From positions 1 through 64,000 of the forward strand of contig JAUXOA010000096.1 of the NCBI GenBank assembly GCA_030682475.1: a DNA stretch of 64,000 bases, written 5' to 3'. The notes beneath the pieces are model-generated. The model did not search any database. It was not told the DNA's origin and saw only the letters and a program-made list of their open reading frames with translations. This stretch comes from Rhodoferax sp. (GTDB taxonomy: Bacteria > Pseudomonadota > Gammaproteobacteria > Burkholderiales > Burkholderiaceae_C). A program made the position numbers and the translations under genes. Positions 7,216-20,108 of this stretch are shown in pieces (the stretch's first letter is position 1; each line of letters begins with the position of its first letter).

Positions 7216-8270
7216 GTTCCAAAATGACCAATACCACCGCGCTGCGCCAGCAGTTGTACCAAGACATGTCGCCCCTGAACCTGACCCCTCTGTGGGCGGT
7301 TCTTCATGCCTTGGTACCACCCCAACCAGCGTCTCCATGTGTTCCTGCACTATGGGAATATGAGCAGATAAAACCATTCCTGAAACGCGCCGGCGAAGCT
7401 ATCAGCGCCGAGGAAGCGGTGCGCCGGGTGCTGATTCTGGAAAACCCAGCGCTGCGCGGCCAGTCGGCCATCACGCAGTCCCTCTACGCCGGTCTGCAGC
7501 TCATCCTGCCCGGTGAAGTTGCACCCAGCCACCGCCACACCCAAAGCGCACTGCGCTTCATTGTGGAGGGCACCGGTGCCTACACGGCGGTGGCTGGCGA
7601 GCGCACCACCATGCACCCCGGTGACTTCATCATCACCCCCAGTTGGACCTGGCACGACCATGGCAACGAAGCCGCTGAGCCTGTGGTCTGGCTCGACGGG
7701 CTGGACATTCCCATGATCCGCTTCTTCGATGCCGGTTTTGCGCAGAACGACACGGCCAAATCGCAGACTGTCGCGCGTGCCGAGGGCAGCAGTTTTGCGC
7801 GTTATGGCCACAACATGGCGCCCGTCAGAGGCGACCCGCCCTTTGGTGCCACCTCGCCGATCTTCAGCTACCCCTATGAACGCAGCCGCGAGGCGCTGCA
7901 CCAGCTCGAGTGCAACGCCCCGGTGGACGCCTGGGATGGCGTCAAACTGCGCTATATCAACCCGGCCACCGGCGGCTCACCGATGCCCACCATGGCCACC
8001 TTCATGCAACGCCTGCCTGCCGGGTTTGACGGCAAAGCCTGGCGCCAGACCGATGGCGCCGTGTACAGCGTGGTCGAAGGTGCGGGTACTGCGTACATTG
8101 ATGGGCCCACGGGTTCTGTACGATTCGACTTCGAGGCGCGCGACCATTTTGTTGTACCCTCATGGCAGGCGCTGCGTCTGGCATCAACAGGGGGTTGCGT
8201 GCTGTTCAGTTATTCCGACCGTCCGGTGCATCAGGCGCTGGGCATTCACAAAGAAGAAAGACTCCCATGA
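7212..8270 (+). CDS. Gentisate 1,2-dioxygenase
   Basis: A 352-aa bicupin that cleaves gentisate to maleylpyruvate with Fe(II) and O2. The first cupin carries [16 protein letters not shown], with the metal-binding His-x-His and Glu typical of gentisate dioxygenases, followed by [20 protein letters not shown]. The second cupin lies around residues 250-340 ([19 protein letters not shown], then [13 protein letters not shown]). The usual family length is 340-370 aa. It overlaps the upstream hydroxylase stop by 4 bp and the downstream hydrolase start by 4 bp. Confidence 0.93.
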
Positions 8271-8962
8271 ACTATGTTTTTAATCCTGCCCCCACGGTGT
8301 CTGTGCCGGTGCTGGGCACGTCCGCACGCTTTCCGGTGCACCGCATCTACTGCGTTGGGCGGAACTATGAGGAACATGCCAAGGAAATGGGCTTTAGCGG
8401 CCGCGAGCCGCCCTTCTTCTTTCTGAAACCGACCGACGCATTGGTCGTGGTCAACGCGGGTGAGCCAGGGGTCATGCCCTACCCCAGCCTGACCCAAAAC
8501 CTGCACCACGAAATCGAACTGGTAGTAGCCATTGGCACGGGCGGCAAAAACATCAAGGCAGCCGACGCCCACAAGCACATCTATGGCTACGCCGTCGGAC
8601 TGGACATGACGCGCCGTGATCTGCAAAACGAGATGAAAAAACAGGGCCGCCCCTGGTGCATTGGCAAGGCGTTTGATGCGTCGGCGCCGATCGGCGCTAT
8701 CACCCCGGCTCCAGCAGCAGGCGCTATCGCCAATGCCGAGATTTACCTGCAGGTGAACGGACAGGACCGCCAGCGTAGCAATGTATCCAAACTGATCTGG
8801 AACATCGCTGAAACCATCGAGCACCTGTCAGCCGCGTGGGAACTGCAGCCGGGTGATTTGATCTACACCGGCACTCCTGAAGGCGTGGCCGCTGTGGTGG
8901 CGGGCGACACCATGCTAGGCGCCGTGGCGGGGCTGCAATCCATCACGGTTACTGTCAAGTAA
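8267..8962 (+). CDS. Fumarylpyruvate hydrolase (FAH family)
   Basis: A 231-aa fumarylacetoacetate hydrolase-family enzyme. [21 protein letters not shown] opens the domain. [22 protein letters not shown] (metal-ligand glutamates) and [13 protein letters not shown] follow, then [12 protein letters not shown] near the end. It hydrolyses fumarylpyruvate to fumarate and pyruvate, the last step of the gentisate route, as NagK does. The start at ATG 8267 overlaps the dioxygenase stop and has AAGAAGAAAG just upstream. A longer in-frame reading to 8162 lies entirely inside the dioxygenase and is rejected. Confidence 0.93.
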
Positions 8963-8971
8963 GGCCCGCTT

Positions 8972-9448
8972 TTGCACATCCTTGAATCACTGGCAAAATT
9001 TTGCGCCATTCTGGCCGGCCTCTTGCTCACCACCATCACCCTGGCGACCTGCGCCAGCCTGCTCGGCCGCAACACGATGGGCGTGACGCTAGTCGGCGAT
9101 TTTGAGCTGACTGGCGTCGCCACCGGTGCCGCCATTGCGCTTTTTTTACCCTGGTGCCAATTGCGGCGCGGCAACATCATTGTTGACTTCTTTACTGCCA
9201 AAGCCAGCGCCAAAACCAATGCCGCTCTGGACCGGCTCGGTGCGCTGCTGCTGGCACTGGCCATGGGTCTGCTGACCTGGCGCACCAGCGTGGGCGGCCT
9301 CAACGCGTTCAACACCCAATCCGGCACGATGATGCTGGGTTTCCCGGAATGGATTGTTTACGCAGCCATGGTTCCGCCCCTGGCGCTGACAGCAGCCATC
9401 GGGCTGTGGCAGGGGCTGAACGACTTTGGTGATGAGGTGCAACCATGA
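8972..9448 (+). CDS. dctQ: TRAP transporter small permease (DctQ)
   Basis: A 158-aa inner-membrane protein with four hydrophobic segments (about residues 8-30, 45-63, 83-101, 125-145), as expected for the DctQ subunit of a tripartite ATP-independent periplasmic transporter. It starts at TTG 8972, nine bases after the hydrolase stop; no ATG is closer. Its stop overlaps the dctM start (ATGA), the normal Q-M arrangement. With dctM and dctP it would import an organic acid using a sodium or proton gradient. The operon context points to an aromatic carboxylate such as 3-hydroxybenzoate or gentisate. Confidence 0.9.
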   Translation: MHILESLAKFCAILAGLLLTTITLATCASLLGRNTMGVTLVGDFELTGVATGAAIALFLPWCQLRRGNIIVDFFTAKASAKTNAALDRLGALLLALAMGLLTWRTSVGGLNAFNTQSGTMMLGFPEWIVYAAMVPPLALTAAIGLWQGLNDFGDEVQP

Positions 9449-10764
9449 GCCCGCTGCTGCTGACGCTGATGATTTTTGCGATCATGCTGGGGCTGATGCT
9501 TATTCGTATACCGATTGCCATTGCCATGTTTGCGGCAGGCTGCGTCGGCTACGTCGCCCAGGCGGGCTGGGGACCCTTGAGCAACTTTCTCAACGCCCAG
9601 GCCTTTGCCCGCTTCGCCAGCTATGACTTGTCTGTCATTCCCCTGTTCATTTTGATGGGACATTTCGCCACCCAGGGCGGCATCTCGAAAGCCCTGTTTG
9701 GTTTCGCCAGCGCACTCATGTCGCGTTTCAAAGGCGGCCTGGCGATGGCGGCCGTGCTGGCCAGTGCCGCCTTTGGTTCCATCTGCGGGTCTTCGGTGGC
9801 CACTGCGGCCACCATCACCTCGGTGGCACTGCCCGAGATGAAACGCCATGGCTACTCGGGGCGACTGTCCACCGGCACGCTGGCCGCCGGGGGCACGCTT
9901 GGCATTCTGATACCGCCCTCGGTGCCGCTGGTGATTTATGCCATTTTGACCGAGCAGAATATTGCCAAGCTGTTTGCGGCCGCCATGGTGCCTGGCATCA
10001 TTGCGATGCTGGGCTACATGATTGCCATTGCCATCTACGTGCGTCTGGTACCCGGCCACGCGCCCGACAACGATGTGGTTGGCGACAGGATCACCGCCAA
10101 GATCATGATGGGCATCGTGCCCATCGCGCTTGTTTTTCTGATCGTCTTTGGTGGCATTTACGGTGGCTACTTTACCCCAACCGAAGGGGCTGCCGTCGGC
10201 GCGGCGTCCACCTTTGTAGCGGCACTGCTGAAACGCGAGTTGACTCTTAAGAAGCTCAAATACTGCTTTTATGCCACGGCGGAGGGCTCGGCCATGATCT
10301 TCATGATCTTCATCGGTGCCGACTTGATGAACTCCGCGTTGGCGCTGACCCAGGTGCCCAACCAGATGGCGGGTGTGGTGCAAGGCTGGGGCCTGTCACC
10401 GCTGATGGTGGTCTCATTCATTCTGCTGTTTTACGTGGTGCTGGGCTCGGTGATGGACGAGCTGTCGATGATCCTGCTCACCATTCCCATCTTCTTCCCG
10501 ATGGTCATCGGCCTTGACTTCGGTATGCCAAAAGATTCGGTGGCCATCTGGTTTGGCATCATGGTGTTGATGACGGTGGGCTTTGGCCTGCTGGCGCCGC
10601 CGGTCGGGCTGAACGTGTATGTCGTCAATGGCATGGCCAAAGATGTGCCGATCGCCGAGAGCTACAAAGGTGTCATGCCGTTTTTGATTAGCGATGTGTT
10701 TCGCACGCTGCTGCTGCTGTTCTTTCCCGGCATCTCGCTGTGGCTCGTCAAATACGTCACTTAG
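9445..10764 (+). CDS. dctM: TRAP transporter large permease (DctM)
   Basis: A 439-aa polytopic protein of the ion-transporter superfamily with about a dozen hydrophobic helices. Family signatures include SVIPLFILMGHFATQGG, AAFGSICGSSVATAATI, GTLGILIPPSVPLVIYAI and GFGLLAPPVGLNVYVV. It forms the translocation channel with DctQ. The start overlaps the dctQ stop by 4 bp. The binding-protein gene follows after 67 bp. Confidence 0.94.
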   Translation: MSPLLLTLMIFAIMLGLMLIRIPIAIAMFAAGCVGYVAQAGWGPLSNFLNAQAFARFASYDLSVIPLFILMGHFATQGGISKALFGFASALMSRFKGGLAMAAVLASAAFGSICGSSVATAATITSVALPEMKRHGYSGRLSTGTLAAGGTLGILIPPSVPLVIYAILTEQNIAKLFAAAMVPGIIAMLGYMIAIAIYVRLVPGHAPDNDVVGDRITAKIMMGIVPIALVFLIVFGGIYGGYFTPTEGAAVGAASTFVAALLKRELTLKKLKYCFYATAEGSAMIFMIFIGADLMNSALALTQVPNQMAGVVQGWGLSPLMVVSFILLFYVVLGSVMDELSMILLTIPIFFPMVIGLDFGMPKDSVAIWFGIMVLMTVGFGLLAPPVGLNVYVVNGMAKDVPIAESYKGVMPFLISDVFRTLLLLFFPGISLWLVKYVT

Positions 10765-10831
10765 GGTAAATCCCGTCACCCCTGTGCCTGATTTCAGGTA
10801 CCTTGTCGCCATCAACCTTCTGGAGCCCCCC

Positions 10832-11911
10832 ATGATTCAAAGACGCACACTACTCAAATCCACCGCTGCAGTGGCACTTGCTGCGCCCGCGTTGAGCGGC
10901 CTTGCTCAGCAAACCGTTACCCTCAAGTTTCATACCTTCATGTCACCGCTGTCCAACGTATGGCTGAACATGCACAAGGTCTGGATGAACAAAGTCGAAC
11001 AAGAATCCGGCGGACGTATCAAGTTTGAAGCTTACCCGGCCATGCAGTTGGGCGGCACACCCGTGCAGTTGTATGACCAGGCCAAAGACGGCGTGGTGGA
11101 CATTGTCTGGACGCTTCCCGGCAACACGGCCGGGCGCTTCCCGCGCATAGAAGTGTTTGAGCTGCCCTTCATCATGACCCACGCCGAGGCGACGTCCAAG
11201 GCCTATTGGGAATATGTGCAAACCGTGGCCACCGATGAGTTCAAGGACACGCAGGTGCTGGCGCTGCATGTGCATGGTCCGGGCATGTTCCACACCAAAG
11301 ACAAACAAATCAAGACCGCAGCCGACCTCAAAGGCCTGAAAATGCGCGGCCCTACGCGCCAGATCACCAAGATGCTGGGCTATTTGGGTGCCACGCCGGT
11401 GGGCATGCCCCTGCCTGGTATTCCCGACGCCCTGTCCAAAGGCACCATTGATGGCGCGGCCATCCCATGGGAAGTGGTTCCTGCGGTCAAAGTGAATGAA
11501 CTCACCAAGTTCCACAGCGAATTTGACCCCGCAGCCGGGGCGCTGTACACCACCACGTTCGTGATGGCCATGAACAAGGCCAAGTACGATTCGCTCCCCG
11601 CCGATCTGAAAAAGATCATCGACAACAACTCCGGCCTGGCGACCTCTGGTTGGCTGGGCAAGGTACAACAGGCCGGTGATGTGGCGGGCCGGCAATCGGC
11701 GGTTGACCGCAAAAACACGATCTACACCATCCCGCCGACGGATGCCCAGGAGTTCAAACGCAAGGCCAATTTGGTTGAAGTGGAGTGGATGCAAGACATG
11801 AACAAGCGCGGCTTTGACGGCCGCAAGCTGCTCGACAGCGCACGCGCCTTGATCGAGAAACACAGCAAGGCCGCACCCGCTGCTGCCAAGACAGCACCGA
11901 AAAAAGCCTGA
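10832..11911 (+). CDS. dctP: TRAP transporter periplasmic substrate-binding protein (DctP)
   Basis: A 359-aa DctP-family solute receptor. The N-terminus MIQRRTLLKSTAAVALAAPA has a twin arginine followed by a hydrophobic stretch and an Ala-x-Ala-like end, so it is probably exported by Tat, or otherwise by Sec. The mature part contains the TRAP binding-protein pattern: LKFHTFMSPLSNVWLNMH, a central MRGPTRQITKMLGYLGATPVG with the carboxylate-binding Arg, and IDGAAIPWEVVPAVK. The C-terminus ends in an Ala/Lys/Pro-rich tail. It starts at ATG 10832. Binding an aromatic acid is inferred from the gentisate genes upstream. Confidence 0.92.
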   Translation: MIQRRTLLKSTAAVALAAPALSGLAQQTVTLKFHTFMSPLSNVWLNMHKVWMNKVEQESGGRIKFEAYPAMQLGGTPVQLYDQAKDGVVDIVWTLPGNTAGRFPRIEVFELPFIMTHAEATSKAYWEYVQTVATDEFKDTQVLALHVHGPGMFHTKDKQIKTAADLKGLKMRGPTRQITKMLGYLGATPVGMPLPGIPDALSKGTIDGAAIPWEVVPAVKVNELTKFHSEFDPAAGALYTTTFVMAMNKAKYDSLPADLKKIIDNNSGLATSGWLGKVQQAGDVAGRQSAVDRKNTIYTIPPTDAQEFKRKANLVEVEWMQDMNKRGFDGRKLLDSARALIEKHSKAAPAAAKTAPKKA

Positions 11912-11926
11912 CATTACACTGCGTTC

Positions 11927-12472
11927 ATGCTGCGAACCCCCATCAAACACTGCAAAAACTGCGGCGCTGCCGTGAGCTACCGAATACCGGACGATGGCGA
12001 CACCAAAGAGCGTGCGGTCTGCACCGCCTGCTACACCCTCCATTACGAAAACCCGCTCAACGTGGTGGGCACCGTGCCGCATTGGGGTGACAAGGTACTG
12101 CTTTGCAAACGCAATATCGAGCCGCGTTGGGGCAAATGGACGTTGCCGGCCGGCTTTATGGAGCTCGATGAGACCGTGGCCGAAGGCGCTGCGCGCGAAA
12201 CGCTGGAGGAGGCCGGGGCTCAATTCGAGATGGAAGGTTTTTTCTCTCTTCTCAACGTCGCCCGCGTCGGGCAGGTCCACATGTTCTACCGGGCACGCCT
12301 GCTCAGCGACACCTTCAGCCCCGGCTTTGAGACCATCGAGGCACGCCTGTTTTCTGAGGCCGAAATTCCCTGGGACGAGATTGCGTTCAGAACCGTCAAG
12401 GAAACGCTGGAACACTACTTTGCAGACCGCCGCGCTGGCCATTTCTCCATTCACACCATTGATATCGTCTGA
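11927..12472 (+). CDS. NUDIX hydrolase with N-terminal zinc ribbon
   Basis: A 181-aa protein. CKNC and CTAC (residues 9-12 and 32-35) form a rubredoxin-like zinc ribbon. The NUDIX box at about residues 75-97 is intact: G-x5-E-x7-REx-x-EE-x-G, reading GFMELDE...ARETLEEAGA. This architecture is like NudC-type and ADP-ribose/NADH pyrophosphatase relatives, but the exact nucleotide substrate is not readable. It begins 15 bp after dctP and could be cotranscribed, though no functional link is obvious. Its last 169 bp are duplicated at 13163-13331. Confidence 0.9.
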   Translation: MLRTPIKHCKNCGAAVSYRIPDDGDTKERAVCTACYTLHYENPLNVVGTVPHWGDKVLLCKRNIEPRWGKWTLPAGFMELDETVAEGAARETLEEAGAQFEMEGFFSLLNVARVGQVHMFYRARLLSDTFSPGFETIEARLFSEAEIPWDEIAFRTVKETLEHYFADRRAGHFSIHTIDIV

Positions 12473-12601
12473 AATTGAAAACGCCTCAAAGGCAGCGGCA
12501 TATTTCGTTACAAATAATCCATTACAAAACCTCCGCACAAGACGTACTGAGCACTACACTCGGACCAAAATCCAGATCAAAATAATCGGGAGGAATTGAA
12601 A

Positions 12602-13054
12602 ATGCGTTTTGATCTTGCCGTGCGAGCCGTACTCGCCACCACAGTCGTGGCCTTTGCAATGGTTGGCTGCAGTGTGTTGCAGCCCGACGCGCACCTGGCG
12701 GCATTCAGTACCCAGATGACAGGCTTGAACCAGATACCGCGCGTGAACACCCCGGCTACCGGCCGGGTGGACGCTTTGTTGGACAAAAACACCCTGCTGT
12801 TCCGCTGGAAGCTGTCGTTTACAGGCCTGAGTGGCCCAGCCACAGCGGGCCACTTTCATGGCCCGGCCGCCATTGGTGCCAACGCGAACACTACCCTCCC
12901 CTTCAAAAACCCAATCAAGAGCCCCTTGGACGGTCGGGCCATGCTGACCCCAGCGCAGGCTGCAGACCTACTGGCTGGAAAATGGTACATCAATATTCAC
13001 ACCACAGCCCACCCCGGCGGTGAAATTCGAGGACAGATGATTTTGCGTGAGTAA
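12602..13054 (+). CDS. CHRD-domain lipoprotein
   Basis: A 150-aa protein. A signal peptide with a lipobox (FAMVGC, Cys about residue 22) predicts a lipid-anchored envelope protein. The mature part matches the CHRD pattern: an opening with LNQIP, central GHFHGPA, and an end with WYINIHTTAHPGGEIRGQM. CHRD domains occur in eukaryotic chordin and in bacterial surface or periplasmic proteins; their bacterial role is poorly defined. It starts at ATG 12602 behind GGGAGGAATTGAAA, a strong ribosome-binding site. It sits between the full NUDIX gene and the dsbB/NUDIX scar. Confidence 0.88.
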   Translation: MRFDLAVRAVLATTVVAFAMVGCSVLQPDAHLAAFSTQMTGLNQIPRVNTPATGRVDALLDKNTLLFRWKLSFTGLSGPATAGHFHGPAAIGANANTTLPFKNPIKSPLDGRAMLTPAQAADLLAGKWYINIHTTAHPGGEIRGQMILRE

Positions 13055-13135
13055 GGCAATTGATGGCTTTTGAGGGCACTCTGAAACTCATGGCTGCAAT
13101 ATTGCCTGGCCCGTTTGGCGAACGTCTGGCCGGAT

Positions 13136-13167
13136 TCAGCGGCGTTTCGCTAGTCTGTAGATCAGCG
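13136..13167 (-). pseudogene. dsbB 3'-end fragment
   Basis: These 32 bp match the last ten codons and stop of dsbB (18978-19009) with one mismatch, in the same orientation. The match begins exactly at the stop codon. It runs directly into the NUDIX fragment through a shared CAGCG, the signature of illegitimate recombination at microhomology. Confidence 0.8.
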
Positions 13168-13331
13168 ACACCTTCAGCCCCGGCTTTGAGACCATCGAGG
13201 CACGCCTGTTTTCTGAGGCCAAAATTCCCTGGGACGAGATTGCGTTCAGAACCGTCAAGGAAACGCTGGAACACTACTTTGCAGACCGCCGCGCTGGCCA
13301 CTTCTCCATCCATGTCATAGATATCGTCTGA
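13163..13331 (+). pseudogene. Duplicated 3' end of the NUDIX gene
   Basis: About 169 bp nearly identical to 12304-12472, the last 55 codons and stop of the NUDIX hydrolase. The differences are one A/G change in the middle and a small cluster near the end. It lacks the NUDIX box and a start, so it is a remnant. An open frame from 13060 runs through it but has no independent support. It is fused at its left end to a dsbB tail. Confidence 0.85.
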
Positions 13332-13401: not shown

Positions 13402-16400
13402 TTATTTTTCCTCGATTAGCCTGATTTCTTCGGCAGTCAACTCAAACAGTTGATACACGATGGCGTCGATCTCAAGCTCGGCCTGCGTGATGGCTTGAGT
13501 GAATGCCGCCACACGCTCGCGAGCTTGCGTGACGGCGGCGTCCCAGTCGTTGCGCTCGGTTAAGTTGAGCTCGCGTTTGAAGCGTTTTTTCAGCTCGGCG
13601 GTGAAATCACCAAACTCAGGCACGCCACTCTGCCAGGCCGCAGGCAGCTTGGCACCGCCTGCGGCCGTCAAATTGCTTAAGCCACCCGGCACCAGGTCGC
13701 GCAGCGCAGCGCGGCCAAAGCGGGCAATCTCGTCGCGGCGTGATTCGGCGGCAGTTTGGGCGGATTGGGCCAGTGTGACGAGCCGAGCTTTTACCGTTTG
13801 TGACGCTTCGGGGATGGGTAGCGTTTCGACGTGCTGGGTAAAGAGACGATAAAACCCGCCCCGGTAGGCACTGGTCATGCCGGTCAACAAAAACCACATC
13901 GCCTTGGAAACCATCAAGGCCAGTAAAAAATGGTCCGCATCGGCAACGAAATAACCGGTGTTGGCCATCACCGACTGCTGGGTTTCGATAGAGAAATTGG
14001 GCTTGTCGCTCATGTCCACATAGACCAGCTTCACCGAGTCAAACTTGTCGTAATAGGCGCAAGCGCGCAGCTCCCACCAAAACTCACCTTGGTCGCTGCG
14101 TTTGCGAGCTTGGGGCTCAAAGCTTTGCAGCCAACGGGCGACTGCTGGCTGCTGGCTGCTGAACCATTGCCAGGCCAGCGCTTCGACAAGCTCAGCGCGA
14201 ACGGTAGTGGGGGCTGGGCTTGCCGCCTGCGCTGCCACTACCAGGGTTTGACCCTGCTGCGCCTCAAAGCCCAGACGGGTGCTGCCATTTTTAATCAAGA
14301 GCAAATGCTCGTTGTGCGCTTCAACGCGCCACTTCTTCAGGTTTTCGCCGCGCAAAAAAGGTTTGATCAGAGCAGCGCTGCGGGGGTCTTCGCTGATCAG
14401 GCGATCTTTGCTGACGCCATCGAGCACGAAGGCTTCGTTGAGCCCGGTCAAGAGCCCGCGATAAGGAGAGCCGTAAACCTCTTTAAGCGTCTTGCGTCCA
14501 TGCTGTAGTTTGTAGCGCAAGGCGGCTTCGCGGCGGTCTTCCAGACGCCAGCTTTCACTACCAAGCTGGCCTTGCGGCATCAGGCAGGCAGACGCATTGA
14601 AGGCCTCAATCAATTTGCCAGGCACCTCGGTTTTGAGCGTCAGAAACTTGATGTTCTGCGCCGCATCGGGTGCACCGCTGCGTTGCAAGGTGATGATGAC
14701 CGGATAAGTGGTGACGCCTTCAAACACCTGTAAATCGCCAAAATCAACCACCGTCTCAATCTGCGCATGCGCCAGCAGATAGGCGCGCAACTTTTCTCCC
14801 GAACCGGTTTTGAAAAACGTGGACGACGAAATAAATCCGAGGCGCCCACCGGCATTACCGTTGCAGTCCACCTCACGCAAAAGGCGAATACCCAGCTCAA
14901 AAAAGTAGCAATACAAGTCTGCCCGGTCAGTGGCCACGGCGTAACGCTTTTCCAGGTAAGGCTTGATGCCCTTGAGCCGCTCCATGCGCACATACGGCGG
15001 ATTGCCCACGATCACATCAAAGCCGCCTTGCGCCACAACGCCGGGGAAAGCGCTGGTCCAGTTGAAGGCCTTGGGGTCAAACTCCAGGCCACCGTCCGCG
15101 CTGGAGACCAGACTGTTGCCGACACGCAGGTTGGCTTCCAGGCTTTCCAGCGGCTTGCCGTGTTTGGCGGTTTTGAGCCAGAGGCTGAGTTTGGTGATCT
15201 CGATGCTTTCGGCGTTCAAATCGACGCCAAACAGGTTGCTGTTCAAAATCTCTTTGTCGGCGTTGAACACTTCCATGCTGCCGGTAATCACCGCAATTTG
15301 TTCGTTGACGTTGTTGTATTCCGCCAGCAGCACGTCAAATGCTGCCACCAAAAACGCGCCGGAACCACAGGCCGGGTCGCACACCTTGAGGGTGATGAGC
15401 TCGGCCAGCCAGGCGCGCCAGAAGATAAGCTCCACCACGCGTTCGGGCTGCGCCAGCGTTTTCGCGTATTTCTTTTCTTCAGCAGCGGGTTTGCGCCATT
15501 CGCCACTTATTTGATAGTTACACAGGAATTCTGCACGGCGGCTCTCAATGGTTTTACCCAATGTCTGGTCGACAATGAAAGCGGTGATGAACTCGGGCGT
15601 GTAAACAATGCCATGCTCTTTGCGCGCACCGTTGACCGAGCTGGTAGCGGCCCTGGCTTGCTCTGCTTGCCGGGTAATGGCCTCCAGCGTAAAGGCGCCG
15701 GTGTCGGCCAGCTCTTTGAGTTGCTCCAGGTCGGTGATGGACTGCTCAAATATGTGGCCCAGCACGTTGACCGAAACTTCGCCGCCAAAGTCGTATTTGC
15801 CGAACTCCATGAACATGTCACAGGCGGCATTGGGCACGCTCAAATTGTCGAGCAAACCGTCTGGCGCGAACAAGCCACCGTTGTAGGGCGGAATGCCGCG
15901 CTCGGGCAGGCCTTTGTCGATGGCCCTGAACAGGGTTTTGTAATGCTCGTATTTGGGTACAACCGCCCAGCCGCTGCTGTTGTTGACGCTTCTCAAAGTA
16001 TCGGCTGGCAGCAGGCCGCGCTGCTGGGCAAATGCAATAAACAACACGCGGTCAAGCAGCTTTTGCGCCGGGGTGATGAGCGCACCGGGCGCCAAGTCGT
16101 TGGCGTGTGCCAAGGCGGTGATGAGCTGGATACGCCAGCGCTTGTAGTCAGCGTAAAGCTCGCGGGTGATTTGTTTTTCGATCTGCCCGGATTCGTTCAG
16201 CAGCGCGGCGGTGCGCCCACCCAGCAGGTTGTCGGCCCCCAGTAACAGCATCAACCGCTGGTAGTGGGCGGGCGAGTCGGCCACCTCCAGCAAATCAAAG
16301 CGCTCGTACACGCGGCGCGTGTGGCCGACCGCATAGAGCCGGATTTCCAGCATGTTGGAGAGCAACAAAAACTTGCAGTTGGGCAAGTCCATGGCGTATT

Positions 16401-16806
16401 CCCATACCTGCTGGACCGGCGACTTGTAGCGCCCAGGCATCATCACATCCAGGTTGGGTGTGTCCGCACCTTTGAGCTCGACTGGCACCAGACCTGAGTC
16501 GCCGTGCGGGCCAAAACGTCCCAACAGAATGTCGGCCCGCCCTTTGCCAACATAGTTTTCATCCGCCAGAGTGAACTCGGAGCCACTGCCAAAGGCTTTG
16601 TAACCGAGCAGCTCACAGAAGAATTTTTGCGTGAAGGCACCGCGAATTTGCTGCTCATTGCGCTGCCGAATCGCCCCGCTGCGGATGGTTTCTGCCCATT
16701 CAGTGAGCAACAATTGATGCGCTGGCGGCGCTGCCGCCTGCGGCGCCGAGCGCGCCAGTAAGCGGGCGTTAAACAGGTGTTGGTGATCGAGTGCTTGTTG
16801 GGCCAT
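13402..16806 (-). CDS. Single-chain Type IIG-like restriction-modification enzyme (Eco57I-type methylase fused to nuclease)
   Basis: An 1134-aa multidomain protein. The N-terminus has a PD-(D/E)xK-like nuclease core (GKGRADILLG about residues 88-96, then VELKG about 109-113). A helical linker follows. The adenine-methyltransferase domain has motif I DPACGSGAF at 477-485 and catalytic motif IV NPPY at 602-605. The C-terminus (about 800-1134) looks like a target-recognition domain with coiled-coil Arg/Glu-rich segments. This R-M-S order in one chain is typical of Type IIG/IIL enzymes; BREX PglX-like methylases are a weaker alternative. No partner genes are adjacent. Near residue 868 an in-frame VRAELVEA stretch comes from a dispersed DNA repeat. 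It starts at ATG 16806. Confidence 0.85.
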   Translation of the reverse strand: MAQQALDHQHLFNARLLARSAPQAAAPPAHQLLLTEWAETIRSGAIRQRNEQQIRGAFTQKFFCELLGYKAFGSGSEFTLADENYVGKGRADILLGRFGPHGDSGLVPVELKGADTPNLDVMMPGRYKSPVQQVWEYAMDLPNCKFLLLSNMLEIRLYAVGHTRRVYERFDLLEVADSPAHYQRLMLLLGADNLLGGRTAALLNESGQIEKQITRELYADYKRWRIQLITALAHANDLAPGALITPAQKLLDRVLFIAFAQQRGLLPADTLRSVNNSSGWAVVPKYEHYKTLFRAIDKGLPERGIPPYNGGLFAPDGLLDNLSVPNAACDMFMEFGKYDFGGEVSVNVLGHIFEQSITDLEQLKELADTGAFTLEAITRQAEQARAATSSVNGARKEHGIVYTPEFITAFIVDQTLGKTIESRRAEFLCNYQISGEWRKPAAEEKKYAKTLAQPERVVELIFWRAWLAELITLKVCDPACGSGAFLVAAFDVLLAEYNNVNEQIAVITGSMEVFNADKEILNSNLFGVDLNAESIEITKLSLWLKTAKHGKPLESLEANLRVGNSLVSSADGGLEFDPKAFNWTSAFPGVVAQGGFDVIVGNPPYVRMERLKGIKPYLEKRYAVATDRADLYCYFFELGIRLLREVDCNGNAGGRLGFISSSTFFKTGSGEKLRAYLLAHAQIETVVDFGDLQVFEGVTTYPVIITLQRSGAPDAAQNIKFLTLKTEVPGKLIEAFNASACLMPQGQLGSESWRLEDRREAALRYKLQHGRKTLKEVYGSPYRGLLTGLNEAFVLDGVSKDRLISEDPRSAALIKPFLRGENLKKWRVEAHNEHLLLIKNGSTRLGFEAQQGQTLVVAAQAASPAPTTVRAELVEALAWQWFSSQQPAVARWLQSFEPQARKRSDQGEFWWELRACAYYDKFDSVKLVYVDMSDKPNFSIETQQSVMANTGYFVADADHFLLALMVSKAMWFLLTGMTSAYRGGFYRLFTQHVETLPIPEASQTVKARLVTLAQSAQTAAESRRDEIARFGRAALRDLVPGGLSNLTAAGGAKLPAAWQSGVPEFGDFTAELKKRFKRELNLTERNDWDAAVTQARERVAAFTQAITQAELEIDAIVYQLFELTAEEIRLIEEK
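14181..14204 (-). repeat. VRAELVEA-type palindromic repeat inside the R-M gene
   Basis: A 24-bp copy of the element also seen at 28093-28117 and, in multiple arms, at 57851-57922. Here it lies in frame within the C-terminal third of the restriction-modification gene and translates as VRAELVEA. Confidence 0.8.
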
Positions 16807-16814
16807 GTGCCTGA

Positions 16815-17366
16815 TTATCGGGCCGCGCCAGGCAACCCCAGCTCCTTCTCGTGCATCCAGGCGGCATGTTGGGGCGCGCGTTTGGTGCGGGACCACTCGG
16901 CCAGCATGTCCCATTTGACCGCGTCGAGTTTTTTCATCATCTCGGGCGTGCCGGTGTTGGCGGTCAGCTCCAGCCGGTGACCGTTGGGATCAAAGAAATA
17001 GATGGACTTGAAGATAGTGTGATCGGTCACCCCCACCACCGCTATGCCACTGGCTTGCAGGCGCGCCTTGGCGGCTTCCAGCTCAATCACACTGTCCACC
17101 TCCAGCGCAATGTGCTGTACCCAATCGGGCGTGTTGACATCGCGCCCCATGGCGGGTGAATTGGGCAGCTCAAAAAACGCCAGTATATTGCCGCCGCCGG
17201 CGTCCATAAACAAATGCATGTAAGGGTCAGGCGCGTGGGTGGATGGCACCCGGTCCTCGGCAATGGCCAACACAAAGTTCATGTTGAGGTGTTGCGTGTA
17301 CCAATCCACAGTTTCTTTGGCGTCCTTGCAGCGGTAGGCGACGTGGTGGATTTTCTTGATGGGCAT
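16815..17366 (-). CDS. VOC-family (glyoxalase/dioxygenase fold) protein
   Basis: A 183-aa protein of the vicinal oxygen chelate fold: IHHVAYRCKDAKETVDWYTQHLN at the N-terminus, DWVQHIALEVDS in the middle and IYFFDPNGHRLELTAN near the end. It carries the His and Glu positions expected for metal binding. It starts at ATG 17366 (MPIKKIHH); the frame continues upstream without similarity. It ends 8 bp before the R-M start on the same strand, so the two may be cotranscribed. Its specific reaction is unknown; glyoxalase, extradiol dioxygenase and resistance roles all occur in the family. Confidence 0.87.
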   Translation of the reverse strand: MPIKKIHHVAYRCKDAKETVDWYTQHLNMNFVLAIAEDRVPSTHAPDPYMHLFMDAGGGNILAFFELPNSPAMGRDVNTPDWVQHIALEVDSVIELEAAKARLQASGIAVVGVTDHTIFKSIYFFDPNGHRLELTANTGTPEMMKKLDAVKWDMLAEWSRTKRAPQHAAWMHEKELGLPGAAR

Positions 17367-17481
17367 GCAAGTCTCCGTCAAAAGCTGCGGGCCCGGGCCT
17401 TTGGCCGCACTGCTGCCAGGCAAGCCAGCCTGATGGCCCTTCGCGTCCGGCGCGCCGGGGTGAAACTCAAGCGCTGTGGTT

Positions 17482-18072
17482 TCAGTCCTTGAATCCCTCA
17501 ATCTGGATCCACAGCTTGATCTCGTCGCCGATGTTGGGCACGGCGAACTTCATGCCGAAGTCGGTGCGCTTGAACGAGCCGCTCGCATTTCCACCGCACA
17601 TCTCTTTCTTGTTCACGGGATGCGCCCGGCATGTCCAGTTCTCGACACGCAGAATCAGGGGCTTGGTCACGCCCAGCAGGGTCAGGTTGCCCTCTATGCT
17701 GCCAGGGTTGTCGCCGGCGAATTTGACGCTGGTCGACTTGTAGGTCATGGTCGGAAATTCGGCTACGTTGAAGAAATCCGGTGTGCGCAGGTGATCGTCG
17801 AGCGAACGCGGCCGTGACCCCTTGTCGTTATCGCCGCTGTTGACCGAGGCGGTCTGTACCGTGATCTCGACCGAGGCGGCCTTGGCGGCGCGGTCGAGCG
17901 TAAACTTGCCGGCGGATTTACCGAAATGGCCGCGCCAATTGGACACGCCGAAATGACTCACCTCCCAGTGCGGGAAGGTGTGCGTCGGGTCGACCGTGTA
18001 GGATTCGGGCGCGGCGAGCACGCCCAGCGGCAGGGCAAGCGCGACGGCACCGATTGCGAGTTTTTGGAACAT
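17482..18072 (-). CDS. YceI-family periplasmic protein
   Basis: A 196-aa protein with a clear Sec signal peptide (residues 1-21, ending GVLAAP). The YceI lipocalin-like barrel starts ESYTVDPTHTFPHWEVSHFG, with the conserved SVNSGDNDKGSR and DDHLRTPDFFNVAEFPTMTYKS blocks. YceI proteins bind isoprenoid or fatty lipids in the periplasm. It starts at ATG 18072 behind AGAAGGAAAAG. It is 70 bp downstream of a polytopic membrane protein on the same strand and may form a pair with it. Confidence 0.93.
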   Translation of the reverse strand: MFQKLAIGAVALALPLGVLAAPESYTVDPTHTFPHWEVSHFGVSNWRGHFGKSAGKFTLDRAAKAASVEITVQTASVNSGDNDKGSRPRSLDDHLRTPDFFNVAEFPTMTYKSTSVKFAGDNPGSIEGNLTLLGVTKPLILRVENWTCRAHPVNKKEMCGGNASGSFKRTDFGMKFAVPNIGDEIKLWIQIEGFKD

Positions 18073-18142
18073 GAAACTTTTCCTTCTGGGGTGAAATGGA
18101 CAACAAAATCGACAACAATCAAGCCGCTGTCTGGGGGGCAAA

Positions 18143-18943
18143 CTACCAGCTCAGGGCACAGGCGACGCCTGCGACCACGAAAGTATAAAGCGAAACCAGG
18201 ACTGCTTGCAGCCACAGCGGCGCTTTTTCCGGAACCGGCAGGGTTGCTGCGACTGGTACCAGCGCCAGCACCAGCACCGAGTACCAGCGCAAATCCGCGA
18301 GTACCATGGCGCCTGCGGCGATCAGCCCGGCGATAAGAGCGGTCGTCAGCATGAAGGTTGCGCCCGCCTCGGTTTTCTTGCCGGTGATCATTTGCGGCAG
18401 CAGGAACGCGCCCGCCCCGACGCCAAGCGCAATTGCGTACAGTCCGTAGCTGGCGGATGCGCCGATGATGGCTGCAATGCCTGTGCCCAGGCCCAGGCCC
18501 AGGCCCGCAGCGCCCGCGCGCACCCCGTGGCCACTCAGGTACACCTGCGAAAAACCGATGAGCCAGGCAACGCAAGCCAGTGCGGTGCCGCCGAGCAGCC
18601 ACGCCTGCGCCGCCTCTTTTTGCGTCAGCACCGGCCAGAACGCCCATAGCGCTGCGGCGCCACCCGCGAGCGCGAGCAAAACCGCTCCGATCTTCGTGGG
18701 CTTGAACGCGAAATCCGCCAGCATGCCGATGATCGGGGCGGCAAAGCCGAGCAGGATGATCTTGCGCGTTACCGTCAGCGGAGTGAAGGTAAAGTCCGAG
18801 ACGAAAAAGACCGCCGTACCGAATGCCGCCACCACGGCCAGCCCGGCGAGCCTGACGCGTCCCAGTGCCAGCGCGACGACGAGGCCGGCGACAAAAGGTG
18901 CGACCCCGCCTTGGACCGCGGGATGATTGAAAAAATCGTTCAT
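18143..18943 (-). CDS. Polytopic inner-membrane protein of unknown function
   Basis: A 266-aa, very hydrophobic, Ala/Gly/Leu-rich protein with about eight predicted helices. A Gly-rich run (GAAGLGLGLGTGIAAIIG) lies in the centre. No catalytic or binding motif is recognisable. It starts at ATG 18943 behind AAGGAACGT. It is followed by the yceI-family gene and preceded by the accessory boundary at dsbB. Base composition looks GC-richer than the flanking core genes, as in the sigma54 block further on; this was judged by eye and not computed. Confidence 0.8.
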   Translation of the reverse strand: MNDFFNHPAVQGGVAPFVAGLVVALALGRVRLAGLAVVAAFGTAVFFVSDFTFTPLTVTRKIILLGFAAPIIGMLADFAFKPTKIGAVLLALAGGAAALWAFWPVLTQKEAAQAWLLGGTALACVAWLIGFSQVYLSGHGVRAGAAGLGLGLGTGIAAIIGASASYGLYAIALGVGAGAFLLPQMITGKKTEAGATFMLTTALIAGLIAAGAMVLADLRWYSVLVLALVPVAATLPVPEKAPLWLQAVLVSLYTFVVAGVACALSW

Positions 18944-18977
18944 ACGTTCCTTGTTGACTAGGGAGCCACGGCCCAAC

Positions 18978-19496
18978 TCAGCGGCGTTTCGCTAGTCTGG
19001 AGATCAGCGCCAGGGCCAGCACGGCAATGCCGACAAAGGACAAAAACGACCAGTTGGCGATGGAGCCGCCCAGAAAGGTCCAGTCCACCTTGGCGCAGTC
19101 ACCACTGCCCTTGAACATCATGGGAATGGCGCGCTGCAGCGGGAAAGTCTCGATCATTCCATAAAAATCGCGGCCGCAGGATGCGATCTCTGGCGGGTAC
19201 CACTGCAACCAGCTTTGCCGGGCCGCTACAAAGGCGCCGAAACCAGCGCTAACCAGCACCACCACGGCCCCACCAATATGCAGACCTTTTTTACCACTGG
19301 CCGCCGTTAAACCTGCCACAAGCGCTATCAAAACAAGAACGTAGCGTTGAACGATGCACATCGGGCAAGGCTCCAGCCCCACCCTGTGCTGCAAGTACTG
19401 GCCAAACGCCAGCAAAGCGATACAAACCACACTGAGCAAGGCGAAGATCCGGCGCGGAGAGTTGTCCAGCCAGCCCGTCAAAACCTGCGAAATCAT
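18978..19496 (-). CDS. dsbB: Disulfide bond formation protein DsbB
   Basis: A 172-aa inner-membrane protein that reoxidises DsbA and passes electrons to quinone. It has four hydrophobic helices. The first periplasmic pair is CPMC (VGLEPCPMCIVQRY, residues 43-46). The second cysteine pair is split (ASCGRDFYGMIETFPLQ and GSGDC), as in DsbB. It starts at ATG 19496 (MISQVLTGW); the longer open frame upstream lacks similarity. The last 32 bp recur at 13136-13167, marking a rearrangement. Confidence 0.93.
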   Translation of the reverse strand: MISQVLTGWLDNSPRRIFALLSVVCIALLAFGQYLQHRVGLEPCPMCIVQRYVLVLIALVAGLTAASGKKGLHIGGAVVVLVSAGFGAFVAARQSWLQWYPPEIASCGRDFYGMIETFPLQRAIPMMFKGSGDCAKVDWTFLGGSIANWSFLSFVGIAVLALALISRLAKRR

Positions 19497-19500
19497 GGCA

Positions 19501-19731
19501 TCAGCCTGCCGCCTCGTCCGCCGCCTTGCAGGAGGGCGCGCACACAGCCTGGGATTTGCCGAGTATCTTGCGCGAGGCCATCTGTGAGCGGGCGCGATGC
19601 TTGCCACACAGAAAGCACGACATGGTCGCGGCACCAAACGAGGTTGCCGCCGTGAACGGGGAGCCCGATACTTTGGATTTGTAACGCAGGCCGTCGGCCA
19701 GCATTTTGGTTTTTGTGTCAGCTTTTGCCAT
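19501..19731 (-). CDS. Small conserved-looking hypothetical protein with CxxC
   Basis: A 76-aa protein, MAKADTKTKMLADGLRYKSK at the start. It has a central MSCFLCGKHRARSQM motif (CxxC, possible zinc or thiol site) and two further cysteines (VCAPSC). The position of the four cysteines suggests a small zinc ribbon. It lies 4 bp upstream of dsbB on the same strand, so it is probably cotranscribed. I do not recognise the family. The alternative start at 19743 adds four residues. Confidence 0.65.
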   Translation of the reverse strand: MAKADTKTKMLADGLRYKSKVSGSPFTAATSFGAATMSCFLCGKHRARSQMASRKILGKSQAVCAPSCKAADEAAG

Positions 19732-19835
19732 AGGGTAGATCATACTTCGATCAGCAACCCTGACCCTGCCAGGTCGACGGCCACTGAAAACTTGCTAAAG
19801 TTACGTTCTTTATAAATATTCGGAAAAGGTTTCAA

Positions 19836-20108
19836 ATGGCACGCACTGTGAATTGCATCAAACTCGGACGGCAAGCCGAGGGACTGGATTTTCCGCCCTA
19901 CCCTGGCGAACTCGGCAAGCGCATCTGGGAGAGCGTGAGCAAGGAAGCCTGGGCCGCCTGGCTCAAGCATCAGACCATGCTGCTGAATGAAAACCGTCTG
20001 AATCTGGCGGACATCCGGGCCCGCCAGTACTTGGCGCGCCAGATGGAAAATCACTTTTTTGGCGCGGGTGCCGATGCCGCGCAGGGCTACGTGCCGCCCA
20101 GCGCTTGA
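19836..20108 (+). CDS. yggX: Probable Fe(2+)-trafficking protein YggX
   Basis: A 90-aa cytosolic protein matching YggX over its full length: [30 protein letters not shown] with the conserved Cys7, then [19 protein letters not shown] and [15 protein letters not shown]. YggX protects iron-sulfur clusters from oxidation and may deliver iron. It starts at ATG 19836 behind GGAAAAGG. It diverges from the dsbB pair. Confidence 0.95.

Follow-up and report, generated by a model that had tools for sequence, protein, structure and literature searches.

Here we describe a chimeric seam of three gene scraps in the genome of a Rhodoferax species, and on balance we lean towards reading it as a fossil duplication joint: a native gene block would have been duplicated in tandem from inside a NUDIX gene to inside the exopolyphosphatase-family gene ppx, a scrap of dsbB would have been taken up at the joint, and the two copies would then have lost genes in complementary fashion. 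The event is of a known kind and a fresh example of it, and its above-average usefulness comes from the survival of the joint together with parts of both halves.

The window, by which we mean the whole 64,000-nucleotide stretch analysed, comprises positions 1-64,000 of contig JAUXOA010000096.1 in assembly GCA_030682475.1 (Rhodoferax sp.). The genome, labelled G000 below and the one assembly behind this case, is a 3.29-Mb draft made up of 112 contigs, with 94% completeness. Gene names follow Pfam, NCBIfam and PADLOC, except for those of dctQMP, fumarylacetoacetase, pst and MnmC and the label DinG, which are our presumptive assignments from general knowledge.

Composition of the seam

Three pieces follow one another with short overlaps at the seam (Table 1): ppx', an internal fragment of ppx; dsbB', the end of dsbB; and NUDIX', the end of the NUDIX gene that stands intact to the left. 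A sequence-only reading of the same DNA had described a chimera of two gene tails, those of dsbB and NUDIX, joined at a shared 5-bp CAGCG with the intact parent genes on either side. Both tails, their junction and the flanking parents are real, and so is the microhomology, but the shared word is one base longer, TCAGCG (6 bp, 13162-13167), and the third piece, ppx', had been overlooked. The overlap of ppx' with dsbB' is TCAGC (13136-13140, judged against the ppx gene of G072), so that words of a few base pairs are shared at both joints, as in microhomology-mediated joining.

In a repeat search of the window, 12303-12472 aligned with 13162-13331 over 170 nt at 96%, a match far beyond what chance could give, and 13128-13170 aligned with 18970-19012 over 43 nt at 88%. 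Region 13101-13144 matched the interior of ppx with a best E value of 1.4e-9; in the search of the genus the ppx' part matched many genomes (E 4.7e-8 to 3.4e-4), and all 10 of the 10 places fetched lay inside ppx. That this piece might be the end of a minus-strand gene is ruled out by its position in the interior of ppx and its plus-strand orientation. The complete scar was present in one of 89 genus genomes, namely G000 itself, when up to eight of the best candidates per genome were considered.

Directly upstream of the NUDIX' piece stands a TAG in the NUDIX frame, and no open reading frame of at least 80 aa is listed in that frame, so that NUDIX' looks dead. It also carries E146K, as would be expected of a dead copy, at a site that does not vary among the relatives aligned without gaps (64 of 80).

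Table 1. Features of the seam and its surroundings, in order of position
Feature	Positions	Strand	Basis
Fumarylacetoacetase-type gene (presumed) with dctQ, dctM, dctP (presumed); left context, starts approximate	8264-11911	+	Same order before NUDIX in G096, G084, G062
NUDIX, intact, copy 1	11927-12472	+	Pfam NUDIX; 86-92% to 9 relatives
CHRD-domain gene (12602-13054) with upstream region as in relatives	12494-13063	+	Pfam CHRD; blastn
ppx', internal fragment of exopolyphosphatase-family gene, 1 base missing	13101-13140	+	Sequence matches to ppx
dsbB', last 32 nt of dsbB	13136-13167	-	31/32 identical to 18978-19009
NUDIX', last 170 nt of NUDIX	13162-13331	+	163/170 identical to 12303-12472, 7 differences
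Type IIG restriction-methyltransferase, solitary	13402-16806	-	Profile-based family call
Glyoxalase-family gene	16815-17366	-	Same orientation after NUDIX in G096, G084
EcsC', 52-nt EcsC-family remnant, block order and orientation kept	17387-17438	+	88% to G066, E 6e-14; family by Pfam
YceI-family gene and membrane-type gene	17482-18943	-	Family search; neither belongs to the block in relatives
Islet: dsbB (-; 18978-19496, Pfam DsbB), small gene 'DUF' (-), Fe-traffic gene (+)	18978-20108	mixed	Order kept in relatives

Older gene order in related genomes

Read with NUDIX forward, the consensus order in relatives is the fumarylacetoacetase gene, (dctQMP), NUDIX, exonuclease, (glyoxalase and an FAD enzyme, on the other strand), EcsC, DinG on the other strand, (a GGDEF-TPR gene), CHRD, (PPK2), ppx and a GGDEF-EAL gene facing ppx, brackets marking members that are sometimes present. 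All members of the block occur in G096, and NUDIX, exonuclease, EcsC, DinG, CHRD and ppx lie on one contig in both G072, where 6 kb of unassigned sequence separates CHRD from ppx, and G032 (across loci L063 and L107). In these three genomes the block runs unduplicated, contiguous and in the same orientation from NUDIX to ppx over about 11-14 kb, with NUDIX and CHRD 6-13 kb apart (13 kb in G032). Partial blocks are found in G066 (EcsC, DinG, CHRD, ppx), in G084 (NUDIX to EcsC) and in G067 and G086 (DinG, CHRD, ppx); in G067 NUDIX has no exonuclease after it. Across 80 NUDIX loci the next recognised gene was the exonuclease in 35 and EcsC in nine, while 36 had none or reached the contig end, and a glyoxalase gene behind NUDIX was seen only in G096 and G084.

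What these comparisons suggest does not all favour a duplication of the whole block: only a few relatives show it entire, and counting against it as well are the wide separation of NUDIX and CHRD in G084 and G062, neither of which has the contiguous arrangement, the restriction of glyoxalase behind NUDIX to two genomes, and the lack of an exonuclease there in some relatives such as G067.

The CHRD region of the window, with its upstream sequence, aligns by blastn with the CHRD loci of relatives from 12494/12497 to 13060/13063, with a best identity of 83% (to G066), and CHRD comes late in the older order. The sequence-only reading had supposed that the duplication was later interrupted by inserted DNA. 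Insertion need not be invoked for CHRD, glyoxalase or the EcsC scrap, relatives of all three being found downstream of NUDIX in unduplicated genomes. It may be the right explanation for the restriction gene, the YceI gene and the membrane gene, of which the 80 NUDIX loci of relatives yielded no instance. That reading had itself named the same intervening genes in genomes without the duplication as an observation that would tell against it, and such genomes exist for some of these genes: CHRD is so placed in G096, G072 and G032, and glyoxalase in G096 and G084.

Two complementary half-copies

To the left of the seam the window holds NUDIX-CHRD-ppx', and to the right NUDIX'-glyoxalase-EcsC'. The pieces of each half keep the order and orientation of the block, and the halves have only the joint gene in common. 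Every retained gene is present in one copy only and in the older order within its copy, the pattern left by complementary loss, and three remnants of lost copies, NUDIX', ppx' and EcsC', are found. As for the outer ends, NUDIX is intact at the left, the intact ppx lies on another contig, C28, and the intact dsbB at the right may have arrived separately.

No remnants of the exonuclease, the FAD enzyme or DinG were seen in the gaps of the window. A DNA search of G000 with 15.3 kb of the G096 block, taking the best 40 of 116 candidates, gave no match for the exonuclease, for EcsC beyond the scrap, for DinG or for PPK2, and just short matches, of 62 and 129 bases, for the FAD gene and the GGDEF-TPR gene. 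Because the genes of the block are thus mostly without a match in G000, we infer most of the second copy rather than see it.

The intact ppx of G000 and the GGDEF-EAL gene facing it lie on C28 (L154), beside a cluster that we take to be pst-like. The ppx' fragment shares 32 matches over 36 bases with this ppx, and 31-36 matches over 36-38 bases with those of other species. In a tree of 11 ppx genes, which has no well-supported fork, the C28 gene is the longest branch. Since ppx' is no closer to the ppx of its own genome, and in view of that long branch, the intact C28 gene may be foreign, or else the joint at ppx' may predate the one at NUDIX'.

Kinship and age of the NUDIX copies

NUDIX and NUDIX' match each of the four nearest relatives equally well (153 and 153, 149 and 149, 145 and 145, 143 and 143 of 170 positions); for the others among the 12 relatives listed, the counts of the two copies differ by up to 6. 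Given this equality, and given that the copies stand 10% from the nearest relative and 4% from each other, NUDIX' is probably an in-paralogue, copied in this lineage after its split from the nearest species. In this respect, and in placing a microhomology at the joint, the within-lineage duplication proposed from the sequence alone has held up.

The same reading took the small number of differences to mean that the event was fairly recent. The differences are indeed only seven, but they are unevenly spread, six of them, at 12442-12460, falling within the last 31 bp, where both copies seem to have changed when judged by the nearest relatives; with such clustering, dating is unsafe.

The dsbB gene and its probably relocated islet

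The sequence-only reading had supposed NUDIX and dsbB to be ancestral neighbours and proposed a search for their scar-free adjacency in relatives. None was seen: dsbB was absent from the retrieved flank of NUDIX (up to 10 kb, shorter at contig ends) at all 80 named loci, and in relatives it adjoins argA and the Fe-traffic gene instead. Both NUDIX and dsbB are strongly matched in 30 of 35 same-genus genomes (the exceptions are G004, G008, G025, G026 and G035), and among these 30 they share a contig in one, G010, at a distance of about 553 kb. They are about 227 kb apart in G084 and about 555 kb apart in G062.

In five of five relatives argA lies within 2 kb of the 3' end of dsbB, at 53-74 bp in G096 and G062 and at 0.8-1.9 kb in G072, G032 and G084. 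The window's contig has neither of the usual outer neighbours of the islet, argA being on contig C2 and no match turning up for the gene that we take to be MnmC-like, and the islet has probably been relocated. The intact dsbB lies only 5.8 kb to the right of the seam, a proximity that counts against the favoured reading in that it makes chance templating of the dsbB' scrap hard to accept; a link between the scrap and this nearby gene is likely.

In relatives dsbB and argA are close convergent neighbours, and in G000 both dsbB (18978) and argA (C2 near 25585, L250) carry GCTGAGTTGGGCC over their stop codons. Such a shared sequence would be compatible with dsbB and argA having once been convergent, with an inverted repeat between them at which the DNA broke. 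The dsbB 3' flanks inspected in seven relatives had no GCTGAGTTGGGCC, and inverted repeats there had arms of at most 9 bp. As to a reciprocal junction of such a break, the 1.5 kb beside argA on C2, where the adjoining gene is presumably ribonucleotide-reductase-like, matched none of the block sequences compared.

Three further readings were considered and rejected. A relative of the small DUF gene occurs about 4 kb from NUDIX at four loci and might have marked an old dsbB neighbourhood, but at none of the 80 loci is NUDIX accompanied by dsbB or the Fe-traffic gene. One inversion reaching from NUDIX to dsbB could produce a joint of this kind, yet it would have disrupted the two genes, which both stand intact. 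A third course is recombination between two PPK2 genes, of which one adjoins dsbB in many relatives and another lies between CHRD and ppx in G096, but contig C6 has no PPK2 match, and it is ppx' that sits at the joint.

Origin of the arrangement

A tandem duplication keeps its outer genes whole and leaves a chimeric seam between them. Duplication of the block, a templated scrap where the copies meet and losses from opposite copies make up the most economical reading of the locus. The sequences themselves show the chimeric joints, the two complementary partial copies, the order of the block in several relatives and the absence of the scar from every other genus genome searched; for the rest of the reading we infer polymerase switching, duplication of the whole block, the order of the losses and the route by which dsbB arrived. 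Replication or repair would have run through CHRD into ppx and switched at TCAGC to the 3' end of dsbB, of which some 26-32 nt would have been copied before a second switch, at TCAGCG, led back into NUDIX. The left NUDIX would have stayed whole, with the chimeric ppx'-dsbB'-NUDIX' seam in the middle. Redundant genes would then have been lost from opposite copies, the left one keeping NUDIX and CHRD and the right one glyoxalase and the 52-nt EcsC scrap; the restriction gene, the YceI gene and the membrane gene would have come in, and the dsbB islet would have moved to the right-hand side.

The main rival is a more local event, in which serial template switching left NUDIX at its 3' end, took in no more than CHRD-ppx' and dsbB', and came back into NUDIX at a point 170 nt further upstream. 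The duplicated DNA would never have exceeded about 0.7 kb plus the 170 nt, and the old downstream CHRD and other genes would have been deleted later. The same arrangement would result with fewer deletions and with joints of 5-6 bp microhomology, and serial switching with inserted sequence is known in E. coli (PMC3161906). An extra switch would however be needed, from the NUDIX 3' flank to the region upstream of CHRD near 12473-12494, where no clear microhomology is seen, and the original CHRD would still have to be lost afterwards, together with the intervening genes. We regard this course as rather unlikely.

The duplication of a NUDIX-dsbB segment can also be amended to fit the new data, if dsbB first moved downstream of CHRD-ppx, the stretch from NUDIX to dsbB was then duplicated, a deletion at TCAGC afterwards brought ppx' and dsbB' together, and both copies lost genes. 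This would account for the intact dsbB lying at the right and facing the way expected after a tandem duplication, and an imperfect GGCC..A.TCAGC is common to ppx and the dsbB flank at the joint. We nevertheless think it improbable, as dsbB is near the block at none of the 80 loci of relatives, the 3' flank of the intact dsbB is without ppx, and the islet stands on the window's contig without either usual outer neighbour.

Elements that integrate at gene ends leave a direct repeat of the gene's 3' end around the insert. A mobile element or foreign DNA that inserted at the NUDIX 3' end, bringing CHRD, regenerating the gene end and displacing the NUDIX tail, would produce just such a layout, and the microhomology joints would also fit illegitimate transformation. 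Among the frames of the 0.69-kb insert (12473-13161) that were scanned for families, however, no gene besides CHRD was recognised, relatives have CHRD and ppx close together, and at its end the insert carries a dsbB scrap of the genome's own (31/32), all of which leaves an insertion of this kind very improbable.

An assembly or binning chimera, conceivable for a draft in 112 contigs, is hardly credible, given that the 5-6 bp shared at the joints are generally too short to mislead the usual assemblers, that the copies differ by 4%, and that the genes to the left and right of the seam have their matches in one and the same genus and are similar in G+C, with the exception of the membrane gene (0.65).

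Relation to known systems

In the tandem duplication-random loss model of animal mitochondrial genomes, a duplication is followed by loss from alternate copies. In broad outline the block duplication favoured here follows the same course, and it differs in that it concerns a bacterial chromosome, that many genes of the block are not found at all and that other genes have been added.

For the joints themselves, E. coli offers the nearest likeness: in amplification, rearrangements that are joined at a few bases and carry inserts from nearby have been attributed to repeated template switching (PMC3161906). A few shared bases and complex joints holding sequence from elsewhere are features common to those rearrangements and ours. 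Those, however, arose in stressed laboratory cells, whereas here a degraded joint lies in a natural genome and the process is reconstructed from it.

The rapid change of gene order in bacteria has yet to be explained. The SNAP hypothesis holds that duplication of a segment, followed by loss of redundant genes, alters bacterial gene order (PMC7055797), and a later paper names it as a possible cause of changes in operon clusters (PMC8046335). The authors of the hypothesis state that there was so far no direct empirical evidence for rearrangements in modern species caused in this way, and that the completed process leaves no feature unique to the model (PMC7055797). The present locus resembles the SNAP scheme in its two partial copies of one block, complementary retained genes and new gene order, and is unlike it in that the joint scar survives; SNAP moreover involves positive selection for dosage during niche change, whereas our case is known from sequence alone.

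A chimeric joint between complementary half-copies would be a feature of the kind that the SNAP authors find missing, and we put at about even the chance that this surviving joint between complementary half-copies of a native block is direct natural evidence that duplication and complementary loss reorder bacterial genes. A keyword search of the literature, at the level of titles, brought to light no recognised bacterial case with a surviving duplication joint. If the reading is true, such joints, scraps fused at microhomology near their intact parents, should be simple to screen for, which would allow a count of how much gene reordering is owed to duplication and loss.

Further observations on neighbouring genes

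The presumed pstS gene of the C28 cluster had weak or no matches in the 11 relatives searched. Between DinG and EcsC, G096 has some 150 bases (L109 9949-10107) that match many places in G000 and are apparently a dispersed repeat. The membrane-type gene (18143-18943) is without a Pfam or NCBIfam match, and one other of the 89 genus genomes has it, at 41% identity. The restriction gene, which lies about 9 bp from the stop codon of the glyoxalase gene, occupies the place where most close relatives carry an exonuclease/Cho-type gene.
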